NCBI GenBank assembly: GCA_947177215.1
Contig: CAMWTV010000003.1
Coordinates: 1 to 37,200 of the forward strand
Reading direction: 5' to 3'
Length of the DNA: 37,200 nucleotides
Source: an uncultured Muribaculaceae bacterium
GTDB lineage: Bacteria > Bacteroidota > Bacteroidia > Bacteroidales > Muribaculaceae
Under the pieces are notes generated by a model, which saw only the letters and a program-made list of their open reading frames with translations, did not search any database and was not told where the DNA came from. Position numbers and translations under genes: made by a program. Shown in pieces: positions 4,530 to 28,913 of the stretch. Every line of letters begins with the position of its first letter. The stretch's first letter is position 1.

Positions 4530-5756
4530 ATGAAAGGGATATTAAGAATTTTAATGGTGATAGCAGTTATTTATCCTCCGGGTGCTCACGCCCGGAGGAT
4601 AGCTGTTTCTACCCCGACGGCCAGCGCACAGAAAATAACATCGACTGAAGATCTGGCCGATGCGCTTGAACAACTCACCCCATTCACAGCCGATGTGAGA
4701 TTCGAGGTAGCCATGCCCATGGCAACCGACGATGTTGTCTACAACCTGCGGTTGTCGTCGGTCAGCGAACCTGCCGACACGCTTGCCTACATGAGATATC
4801 TCATAAACTGGCAACTACCGCGCGAAGAGACTGTGGCAGAAGGCTTTCTGGCCTATTTCGACGGTCATCATTACCGATACCGCGACAACCGGCTTCAGGA
4901 ATATCATTTTCTCTGGGACTCGGTGCCGTTTCTCACCGGGCGCGGCGGAGTGCAACGCAACGGCCAGTTTGTCGACCTGCTTCCGCGGTCGATCGCCTCG
5001 GAACTACGCGCCATGCTCACCGACAGCACATTCGCGGTCACATTCATTCCCGACACAACTGTCAACGGGCAACATGTGGCTCTCGTCACGGCCACACAGA
5101 ACGCCGGCGGATTCACCGGACGCAACTACCGCCTTGCGGTTGACCCCGCAACCGGTCTTCCACTCTCGGTAAGCAACGAATATAATCCGGGGCAGGTAAG
5201 CGAACAGGGCGTAGAGGTAACATACAGCTACGGAAACGAGGAAAGCCCTCTCCCCCCTTCATCAGAATCAGAACTGATTGCCATCTATCCCGAAGCATTC
5301 GAGAAATTCCGTGAAAGCAACTACCGCATAGAAAACCTGCGCGGTCTCGATCTGCCTCCGTTCTCGCTTCCGACCCTTACATCAGAGCGCTATACACGCC
5401 ACAAGGGGGATCCGTTCAAGGCTCCGGTAATACTCGCCATAATCGATCCGGAGGTTGAAAGCGCCGCAGCAACAGTGGCCGCCCTGCGCAAAAGCGTGGC
5501 CGCCCTCCCCTGCCAGACCGACCTGATAATGGCCTTTATGGGGAGCGACATCGACCGTATAGAGAGTGTGGCCGGCACCGCGGCTATGGGCGAGACTATG
5601 CTCATCTCGGCAAAATCGCTCGCACGCGACTGCGGCACATCGGTTTATCCTACAATACTGGTGGTGGGACGCGACGGAAAAGTTGAGAATGTAATCCTCG
5701 GATTCAACAACTCACTGACCGACGATGTTATTCAGTCGATAGCAATTATGAACTAA
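4530..5756 (+). CDS. Exported protein with a C-terminal thioredoxin-like fold lacking CxxC
   Basis: Signal peptide; C-terminal (AAATVAALRKSVAALPCQTDLIMAFMGSD...CGTSVYPTILVVGRDGKVENVILGF) has a thioredoxin-like cis-Pro region but no CxxC. Confidence 0.65.
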   Translation: MKGILRILMVIAVIYPPGAHARRIAVSTPTASAQKITSTEDLADALEQLTPFTADVRFEVAMPMATDDVVYNLRLSSVSEPADTLAYMRYLINWQLPREETVAEGFLAYFDGHHYRYRDNRLQEYHFLWDSVPFLTGRGGVQRNGQFVDLLPRSIASELRAMLTDSTFAVTFIPDTTVNGQHVALVTATQNAGGFTGRNYRLAVDPATGLPLSVSNEYNPGQVSEQGVEVTYSYGNEESPLPPSSESELIAIYPEAFEKFRESNYRIENLRGLDLPPFSLPTLTSERYTRHKGDPFKAPVILAIIDPEVESAAATVAALRKSVAALPCQTDLIMAFMGSDIDRIESVAGTAAMGETMLISAKSLARDCGTSVYPTILVVGRDGKVENVILGFNNSLTDDVIQSIAIMN

Positions 5757-27274: not shown

Positions 27275-27354
27275 TTAAAGTTTTCACCTCATTTTTTAGT
27301 CAGCCGCAGGGCTGATGGAGTGGAAATTACAGAACCTGAGCTGTATTATAATAA

Positions 27355-27385
27355 CAAAAGTAGGCAAAATGTTTGACCTGGCAAA
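27355..27385 (-). promoter_or_regulatory. Promoter of the AMP-ligase gene (TTTG-N19-TACTTTTG)
   Basis: Minus strand TTTG (27385-27382), 19-nt spacer, TACTTTTG (27362-27355). Confidence 0.65.
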
Positions 27386-27420
27386 AGCCATTGTCGCGGA
27401 CAGCTTCCGTGGCGGGGCAC

Positions 27421-27459
27421 AAAAAAATCCATTGTTTCCTTCACAGGTAACCATGGATT
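27421..27459 (-). terminator. Intrinsic terminator of the candidate small RNA
   Basis: Minus strand AATCCATGGTTACC-TGTGAA-GGAAACAATGGATT followed by a T-run. Confidence 0.75.
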
Positions 27460-27686
27460 AAAGCCAAAAGGCACGATTTGTGATTCTAAAACGTTGCGAC
27501 TATAAAGCCGACAACTTCAAGTGTAGAGATTATATCTTACTTACATTCATCTAATCCGGAATGACCAAAGCCGCTCTACACGCCTCCCGGCGGGTGGCTT
27601 GCTCCGCTTTTCCAAATTTACATGTAGTTTATAGAGTCAGTATTGCTGTCCTAAAACCTGTACCTTGAAAAAATGCCATCGGATTC
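27421..27686 (-). ncRNA. Candidate free-standing structured small RNA (~265 nt), family unknown
   Basis: Lies between a consensus promoter (27692-27722) and an intrinsic terminator (27421-27459), both minus strand; no ORF of 60 aa or more; several local complementary stems. Confidence 0.6.
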
Positions 27687-27691
27687 TGGTG

Positions 27692-27722
27692 CAAAGTTAA
27701 CGATTTCTTTTCATATGCCAAA
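27692..27722 (-). promoter_or_regulatory. Promoter of the candidate small RNA (TTTG-N19-TAACTTTG)
   Basis: Minus strand TTTG (27722-27719), 19-nt spacer, TAACTTTG (27699-27692). Confidence 0.7.
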
Positions 27723-27776
27723 ATCGGCAGAGCACGCCGGAATTGACCGGGTGTCAGGCAAATGAGTTAAATATTC

Positions 27777-28913
27777 TTAAAACCGGTTGATTATGGCGGC
27801 TATCTCGCGGGCATCGTCTTCTGAGATGCAACGGCTTATGGGTAGACTGACACACGACGAGGCCAGACTCTCGGTGACCGGAAGCCTCCCGGCATATTCC
27901 TTTCCGAGTGTGGCGGCATAGCACGGCTGCAGATGAGGCGGCACGGCATAGTGAATGTCCCACCCTATGCCGTTGTCATCGAGATAACCGGTGAAGGCCT
28001 CGCGGTCGGCCACATGCACAACGAACTGGTGGAACACATGGTCGGCGGTGAGGCGGGGCAACGATATTTTCGGATTCATTATCCCGGCGCAATAGACCGA
28101 GGCAAGACGGCGGCGCAGATCGTTTTCCTGATCTGTAAAAGGGAGTTTGCATGACAGCACTGCCGCCTGAACCGGATCGAGGCGGCAGTTATAGCCCTGA
28201 TATATGTTGTGGTAACGGCGGTCGGCGCCATAATTGGCAAGCGCTCTGACGGTTCGGGCAAGCCGGGCGTCGTGGGTGGTCACGGCTCCGGCATCGCCTA
28301 TGGCCCCTATATTTTTTGTGGGATAAAAGCTGAAGCCGGCCGCATCGCCCAACGCTCCGGTCACTGTGTGGCCGTAAAGACCGGGGGTGTCAGAGTGCGC
28401 CCCTATGGCCTGGGCGTTGTCTTCGATAACTTTCAGGCCATGACGGCGCGCCACGTCGGCCATTGTCGCGTTCCAGCTCACTTTGCCATAGAGATGCACC
28501 GTCATGATGGCGCGGGTGCGCGGTGTGACAGCCTCTTCCACACGCGCCGGATCGAGGTTGGAGGTCGACGCCTCAGGCTCGACAAGCACGGGGCGCAGCC
28601 CGGCGTCGCTTACGGCAAGCACTGTGGCTATATAGGTGTTGGCAGGCACGATCACCTCATCGCCTTCGGCCATTACACCCATCGCCATATAGGCCCGCAG
28701 AATGAGCCTCAACGCATCAAGCCCGTTGCTGACACCAACGGCATAGGGAGCGCCCGTGAGGCTGCACAGCCGGCTCTCCAAGGCCTCGACCTCGGGGCCG
28801 CCTACATATCGGCCGCTTCTTACCACCCTCAAAACCGCCTCTTCGATGGCGCCGGCGTAGGGGGCGTTAACTTTGTCAAGATTCAGAAATTCAAAACGTG
28901 TGGCTGGCTTCAT
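27777..28913 (-). CDS. DegT/DnrJ/EryC1/StrS aminotransferase (FdtB/QdtB-like)
   Basis: RSGRYVGGPEVEALESRL, VIVPANTYIATVLAV, VIEDNAQAIGA, GFSFYPTKNIGAIGDAGAV. ATG 28913 preferred over 28949. Confidence 0.9.
   Translation of the reverse strand: MKPATRFEFLNLDKVNAPYAGAIEEAVLRVVRSGRYVGGPEVEALESRLCSLTGAPYAVGVSNGLDALRLILRAYMAMGVMAEGDEVIVPANTYIATVLAVSDAGLRPVLVEPEASTSNLDPARVEEAVTPRTRAIMTVHLYGKVSWNATMADVARRHGLKVIEDNAQAIGAHSDTPGLYGHTVTGALGDAAGFSFYPTKNIGAIGDAGAVTTHDARLARTVRALANYGADRRYHNIYQGYNCRLDPVQAAVLSCKLPFTDQENDLRRRLASVYCAGIMNPKISLPRLTADHVFHQFVVHVADREAFTGYLDDNGIGWDIHYAVPPHLQPCYAATLGKEYAGRLPVTESLASSCVSLPISRCISEDDAREIAAIINRF

Follow-up and report, generated by a model that had tools for sequence, protein, structure and literature searches.

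A stretch of 37,200 nucleotides from an uncultured Muribaculaceae bacterium (contig CAMWTV010000003.1 of assembly GCA_947177215.1; hereafter the window) carries on its minus strand, upstream of an AMP-ligase gene, an interval of about 265 nt without any protein-coding potential of note. What does this interval make, and what would its product do? We consider it probable that this is the gene for a trans-acting, base-pairing small RNA (sRNA) that is specific to the family Muribaculaceae and represses the use of alpha-glucans through an almost invariant 26-nt seed. From the anatomy, conservation, complementarity and seed-target covariation computed for this locus and its relatives, we infer that the RNA is expressed, pairs in cells and represses its targets.

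The predicted transcript is bounded by a promoter and a terminator of its own, which confirms what an earlier note on this DNA had observed. The promoter is of the consensus type for Bacteroidota (Table), and its TAnnTTTG box also lies upstream of 64 of the 66 copies of the sRNA in related genomes, against 7.4 expected from shuffling. The longer arrangement TTG-N18-21-TAnnTTTG precedes 52 of these 66 copies (0.5 expected). The position of the 5′ end is deduced from the location of this promoter. An intrinsic terminator, overlooked by a simple terminator scan, closes the interval at its other end, and between the two lies no open reading frame (ORF) of 60 or more amino acids on the minus strand, with several stops in each of the three frames. 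These features together describe an independent transcription unit, whose median predicted length is 242 nt among 55 copies.

Because the interval lies upstream of the AMP-ligase gene on the same strand, it might instead be the leader of that gene or a riboswitch controlling it. We give this explanation almost no credence. The ligase has a promoter-like pair of its own beyond the sRNA terminator, as the earlier note had also remarked, and an AMP-ligase gene follows the sRNA at none of the 29 other loci examined. There is no conserved neighbour, downstream or otherwise, of the kind that a cis-regulatory leader would keep, and the flanking genes differ freely between genera. This variability, together with the absence of the ligase downstream elsewhere, indicates that the sRNA is not a leader. 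It is encoded apart from its predicted targets and in no fixed context, as is characteristic of trans-encoded regulators.

Is the product a structured RNA? Folding of the single sequence is not informative (z = -1.6), and the case therefore rests on comparison. Relatives share, in order, an invariant stretch, a hairpin, the sequence AGAAUCACAAAUCNUGCCUUUUGGCUUUARUCC and the terminator, and the conserved structures comprise helix P1, a hairpin with a GNRA tetraloop, a GUUG/CAAC hairpin (P5), the hairpin GCC-UUUU-GGC and the terminator. Read by eye, the 5′ domain of most genera consists of P1 (e.g. ACACC/GGUGU), P2 (GUUGC/GCAAC), P3 (CCUURG/CUAAGG) and the GNRA hairpin; of these, only P1 and the GNRA hairpin can be clearly made out in the window's genus. 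The sequence of P1 varies between species with its pairing maintained, such that its mean helix score is 15.9 versus 12.9 +/- 0.34 when arms are swapped between copies (200 swaps, maximum 13.8). The GNRA hairpin likewise occurs in related copies as CGUU-GUGA-AACG, CGCU-GUGA-AGCG and other variants. In the 3′ half, 14 of 17 pairs have changed on both sides, giving a covariation score of 0.299 versus 0.144 for shuffled data (0 of 500 shuffles reach the score) and at most 0.116 for slid controls, in an alignment that was fitted to the structure and is therefore biased in its favour. All five pairs of P5 have changed on both sides among 68 sequences, as have nine pairs of the terminator.

The GUUG/CAAC hairpin had been proposed in the earlier note and proves to be conserved. 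A second helix from the same source, GUGUAGAG (27581-27574) with CUCUACAC (27528-27521), does not hold: its arms are complementary in the window, but related RNAs lack the 5′ arm, and the 3′ arm is nearly invariant and falls inside the 26-nt element. One of the three stems in that note is thus unconserved, and neither the seed nor the targets described below figured in it.

No part of the sRNA is more constrained than its 26-nt element, AAUGUAAGUAWGAUAUAAUCUCUACA, for which there is no conserved pairing partner within the molecule. An internal pseudoknot, GUAUGAU/AUCAUGC, was considered and rejected, as its 3′ partner varies freely while its 5′ part is invariant. Two weak database matches turned out to be complements of the element in mRNA leaders, which suggested a role as a seed. 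We scanned 1,222 leaders in 1.6 Mb of an sRNA-bearing genome, G524, with no prior choice of genes. The longest exact complements of the element precede genes for an MFS sugar transporter (13 nt; AUAUCAUACUUAC, at -34) and for the 4-alpha-glucanotransferase MalQ (12 nt; AUAUCAUACUUA, which ends at the AUG, the site overlapping or near the start codon being AUAUCAUACUUAUG). Pfam assigns the first protein to the MFS sugar transporters and the second to GH77, with a CBM20 domain; NCBIfam agrees below its cut-offs. The two genes are adjacent in genome G030, which links the transporter to alpha-glucans. Four duplexes in G524 reach -20 kcal/mol or better, versus a mean of 0.5 for shuffled elements (0 of 60). 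A search for near-complements of the whole 20-mer gave 9 extra matches versus 7 in a reversed control, which is no excess; the signal therefore lies in shorter complements at specific genes. The strongest G524 duplex (-21.9 kcal/mol; 10 + 13 bp with a bulge) involves the leader of a TrkH-like potassium transporter gene (G524:C1:1093521-1094895), which was named from its sequence and stands outside alpha-glucan metabolism.

Do such sites accompany the sRNA from genome to genome? Four genes, chosen because G524 had sites before them, were followed through 30 genomes (21 with the sRNA and 9 without). Leaders from -75 to +12 were compared with each genome's own element and with 300 shuffles of it, p < 0.05 being taken as significant. 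G524 itself was excluded from the counts, and two members of genus g14 with a rewritten element were kept apart. Significant complementarity precedes the MFS gene in 15 of 18 genomes with the sRNA and in none of 5 without, and malQ in 13 of 18 and none of 7, respectively. For the four genes pooled, the counts are 36 of 69 with the sRNA and 0 of 24 without (Mann-Whitney 7e-5). Tallied by genus, they are 9 of 12 versus 0 of 5 for MFS and 8 of 12 versus 0 of 6 for malQ (Fisher ~0.01 each). The sRNA-free counts set aside genome G008, on the ground that the sites in its leaders match those of its close relatives; including it adds two exceptions. In the two g14 genomes, malQ has no site and MFS gives one borderline value (p 0.03).

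The seed and its sites also change together. In the window's genus the seed carries an A (GUAAGUAAGAUAU) and the malQ and MFS sites read AUAUCUUAC (the window's own genome, G000, and G001, G004, G007 and G012), whereas in other genera the seed carries a U (GUAAGUAUGAUAU) and the sites read AUAUCAUAC (G021, G029, G036, G065, G099 and G524). Where a site spans the changed base, the cognate seed pairs better and swapping the seeds costs about 4 kcal/mol. When 18-nt windows are slid along the sRNA, only the element stands out in pairing with its own malQ and MFS leaders relative to sRNA-free leaders (-7.2 kcal/mol, t = -10.6). In the window's own genome, duplexes are predicted before malQ (C109; CGAGAUCUUCUUAUAUCUUACUAAACAUUU, -18.3 kcal/mol, from -42), a GH97 gene (C22; UUAGAGAUAAUAUUACUUACGC, -16.8 kcal/mol, from -55) and MFS (C166; UUUAUAUCUUACAUUCAUC, -12.8 kcal/mol, from -39); the genes of the window itself offer no seed site better than -12.9 kcal/mol. 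A conserved seed with covarying complementarity near start codons is what a base-pairing sRNA should display.

A motif that recurs upstream of functionally related genes could also be a DNA site, bound by a transcription factor that controls the sRNA gene along with the alpha-glucan genes, with complementarity as a by-product. We judge this to be very improbable. The matches occur in a single orientation, antisense to the sRNA, with complementary runs of up to 15 nt versus up to 7 nt in the sense orientation (malQ and MFS). The element is buried at least ~100 nt inside the transcript, behind a covarying helix, and at least one malQ site (G065) sits between a TAnnTTTG box and the AUG. Moreover, the part of the element that is matched differs between species (CAUACUUACAU, AUAUCAUACUUAC or UAGAGAUUAUA). 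This fits antisense pairing rather than a fixed operator and implies that the sites were not inherited as a single leader sequence.

Several results weigh against control of alpha-glucan genes by this seed, or narrow its reach. Over all G524 leaders, duplexes of -10 to -14 kcal/mol are no more frequent than in controls, so the regulon is small or many of its sites are weak; we think it is probably small. Sites before GH97 and GlgP are significant in a minority of genomes with the sRNA (5 of 15 and 3 of 18, versus 0 of 5 and 0 of 7 without). G018 and G043 carry the sRNA and lack a site before malQ and/or MFS, as do G009 and G025 for malQ. Conversely, G008, although 99% complete, has malQ and MFS sites and no detected sRNA. 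The genomes are related, so that the counts are not independent; the A/U change happened once, in a single genus, though several target sites there match it. Finally, the predicted accessibility of the element exceeds the average only modestly (0.50 versus 0.42 unpaired).

Two further near-complements of the seed were seen in leaders. One in G008 (L172, contig C20, ~4639-4718) is near-perfect with a 3-nt insertion and precedes a gene starting MRKLTQWLIIALTF. The other, UGUAGAAAUUAUGUCAUACUUAC (L169, G122:C166), stands ~12 nt ahead of the start codon for a secreted protein (MKKTLYILVLTCIPFFGFAQWG); its genome belongs to a different family of the order and yielded no copy of the sRNA.

How widely is the sRNA distributed? 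A blastn search found relatives of its 3′ half in 53 of 197 related genomes, and a covariance model (R1) detected it in 85 of 198 sampled Muribaculaceae genomes, covering 14 of 30 genera, and in 61 of 141 genomes of good quality. Each R1-positive genome has one copy; the sole exception, G068, has two, 2.4 kb apart on contig C1 (L077, 4817-4938 and 7238-7362). Across 394 genomes sampled in the order, R1 gave five matches, all in Muribaculaceae, and none in the 389 genomes from other families. A second model with laxer filters (R2) found none in 20 relatives that R1 had scored negative, and its three weak matches in other families (20 genomes, E 0.01-0.34) were dismissed because, on inspection, none is built like an RNA gene; the best of them lies antisense within a leader. 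An exact scan for the seed in 85,462 genomes returned 63 stretches, mostly labelled Muribaculaceae, Porphyromonadaceae, Bacteroidales or Duncaniella. We take the few metagenome bins with unlikely names such as Paenibacillus or Staphylococcus to be mislabelled, since their contigs also occur in Muribaculaceae genomes. Among named organisms, Duncaniella muris DSM 103720 carries the sRNA (L142; genome G099). As judged from these searches, the sRNA is restricted to Muribaculaceae, with no confirmed copy elsewhere. A phage or mobile origin was also considered and rejected: the seed has no match in viral contigs, where the lone match to the second conserved module scored only 13.1 bits (E 0.51) with the model.

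A single-copy RNA with an elaborate covarying structure, a GNRA hairpin and a second invariant module could be a housekeeping RNA that is structural or protein-bound, like 6S, signal recognition particle (SRP) or Y RNA, with its complementarity to leaders incidental. In size, intergenic location and structure, it does resemble 6S RNA (Bacteroidales-1, RF01693). We nevertheless find this idea distinctly unlikely. No Rfam covariance model matches the window at gathering score, the interval 27300-27800 gives no match even at E = 10, and related copies match none either, which speaks against 6S, SRP and other known Rfam families and agrees with the earlier note, where no tmRNA, RNase P RNA, SRP RNA or known riboswitch had been recognised. 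The RF01693 model instead matches a different locus of the same genome (G000:C286:2005-2197), and in locus L023 SRP RNA has a gene of its own. The sRNA is absent from many nearly complete relatives and is therefore not essential. Its complementarity to leaders is specific to the element and missing where the sRNA is missing. The suggestion in the earlier note of a lineage-specific RNA, either trans-acting or structural, is supported: the RNA is free-standing, structured and confined to one family, and the trans-acting alternative is favoured because mRNA leaders repeatedly contain the complement of the element and covary with it.

How might such an RNA act? Transcription would begin at the sRNA's own housekeeping-type promoter and stop at its own terminator, yielding a structured 5′ domain closed by P1 and followed by a largely unpaired, almost invariant seed. 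Parts of this seed would pair with mRNA leaders over ~10-15 contiguous bp, often more with a bulge, at sites just upstream of the start codon or overlapping it. The best supported targets are the MFS sugar transporter and malQ, and in some species GH97 glycosidase, glycogen phosphorylase and SusC-type genes may be added. The likely outcome is a block of translation initiation and lower use of starch and maltodextrin, as suggested by sites near or over the AUG like those of the sRNAs GibS and FopS (PMC7366714, PMC11697453). Roles of the 5′ domain and the second invariant module in stability or protein binding are guesses.

The same sRNA could conceivably activate or stabilise the same mRNAs. 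At those sites that are 40-60 nt upstream of the start codon, pairing might unfold an inhibitory structure or shield the 5′ end of the mRNA. We regard activation as unlikely, since many sites are within ~40 nt of the AUG or over it, as in G524 malQ, where GibS and FopS repress (PMC7366714, PMC11697453). Repression remains our preferred reading: given that its 26-nt stretch complements target mRNAs around their starts, the sRNA probably lowers expression of genes for starch and maltodextrin breakdown and uptake.

Enterobacteria offer a functional analogy, without sequence relation, in Spot 42 and SgrS, which are Hfq-dependent and tune sugar catabolism and uptake by pairing at translation starts. 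Closer parallels come from Bacteroides thetaiotaomicron. FopS is trans-encoded and represses by pairing near the start codon of susC in polysaccharide utilisation loci (PULs); it is multicopy, with 14 members, and its single-stranded 5′ seed leads into a terminator hairpin (PMC11697453). The RNA described here is likewise a trans-encoded sRNA of Bacteroidota predicted to pair near start codons of glycan-utilisation mRNAs, but it is present in one copy, has its 26-nt seed in the interior, after an extensive structured 5′ domain, and is predicted to target mainly alpha-glucan genes (malQ, MFS transporter). It matches none of 4227 Rfam models, a collection in which the inclusion of FopS, reportedly deposited (PMC11697453), is unconfirmed. 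GibS is an intergenic RNA of 145 nt, conserved within Bacteroides, that uses a 5′ seed and regulates carbohydrate-metabolism mRNAs, including that of a glycoside hydrolase 13 family gene, via conserved seeds (PMC7366714). Our sRNA is also intergenic with predicted targets in carbohydrate metabolism, but its seed and structure are different; the layout of FopS and GibS, an unstructured 5′ seed and then a terminator, is replaced by a seed that follows P1 and the GNRA hairpin.

Table. Coordinates in the window of the sRNA gene, its parts and the adjacent promoter.
Feature	Position	Strand	Details
Promoter, Bacteroides sigma-ABfr type	27692..27722	-	TTTG (27722-27719), N19, TAACTTTG (27699-27692)
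sRNA, ~265 nt	27421..27687	-	Predicted 5′ end near 27686; 3′ end at T-run
P1, 5′ arm AAUCCG	27680..27685	-	Partner is 27558-27553
P1, 3′ arm CGGAUU	27553..27558	-	Closes 5′ domain, immediately before seed
GNRA-tetraloop hairpin CGCC-GGGA-GGCG	27581..27592	-	
Invariant seed element AAUGUAAGUAAGAUAUAAUCUCUACA	27522..27547	-	Other genera have GUAUGAU instead of GUAAGAU
P5 hairpin GUUG..CAAC	27493..27515	-	Covariation
Second conserved module UUUAGAAUCACAAAUCNUGCCUUUUGGCUUUAAUCC	27455..27490	-	Includes hairpin GCC-UUUU-GGC (27472-27463)
Intrinsic terminator AATCCATGG..GGATTTTTTT	27421..27459	-	AAUCCAUGGUUACCUGUGAAGGAAACAAUGGAUU-U7; also written AAUCCAUGG...GGAUU, then T7; covarying pairs
Promoter-like pair of downstream AMP-ligase gene	27355..27385	-	Outside sRNA; TTTG (27385-27382) / TACTTTTG (27362-27355)

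Some copies depart from this layout. In genus g14 (L077, L089, L080 and L095) the seed is rewritten or lost, several copies having a local hairpin instead, and the 3′ module is retained. In L026 and L081 (G103), unrelated sequence replaces the 3′ module after P5, and the promoter, 5′ domain, seed and a terminator-like hairpin are present. In G036, fewer than 100 nt separate the sRNA gene from a gene for the Bacteroidales small SRP RNA (L023 1285-1392). Unexpectedly many copies have a contig end within ~600 nt, often downstream of the copy (G003, G005, G010, G028, G043, G046, G051, G056, G067, G070, G103 and G559); assembly breaks at repeats adjoining the sRNA are a possible explanation.

Muribaculaceae are major users of starch and other glycans in the mouse and ruminant gut, and we found no sRNA described for them in the papers open to our search. 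The sRNA was previously uncatalogued and is family-specific to gut Muribaculaceae. We think it likely that it represents an undescribed family coordinating an alpha-glucan regulon (transporter, glucanotransferase, GH97, phosphorylase and SusC) in a dominant gut family, its seed held near-invariant by many targets, with sRNA and sites changing together in one genus and lost together in others. It provides a candidate regulator with named targets and exact predicted pairing sites. More broadly, it suggests that base-pairing sRNAs control polysaccharide use in Bacteroidota beyond Bacteroides, with the co-evolution of sRNA and target visible in their sequences.
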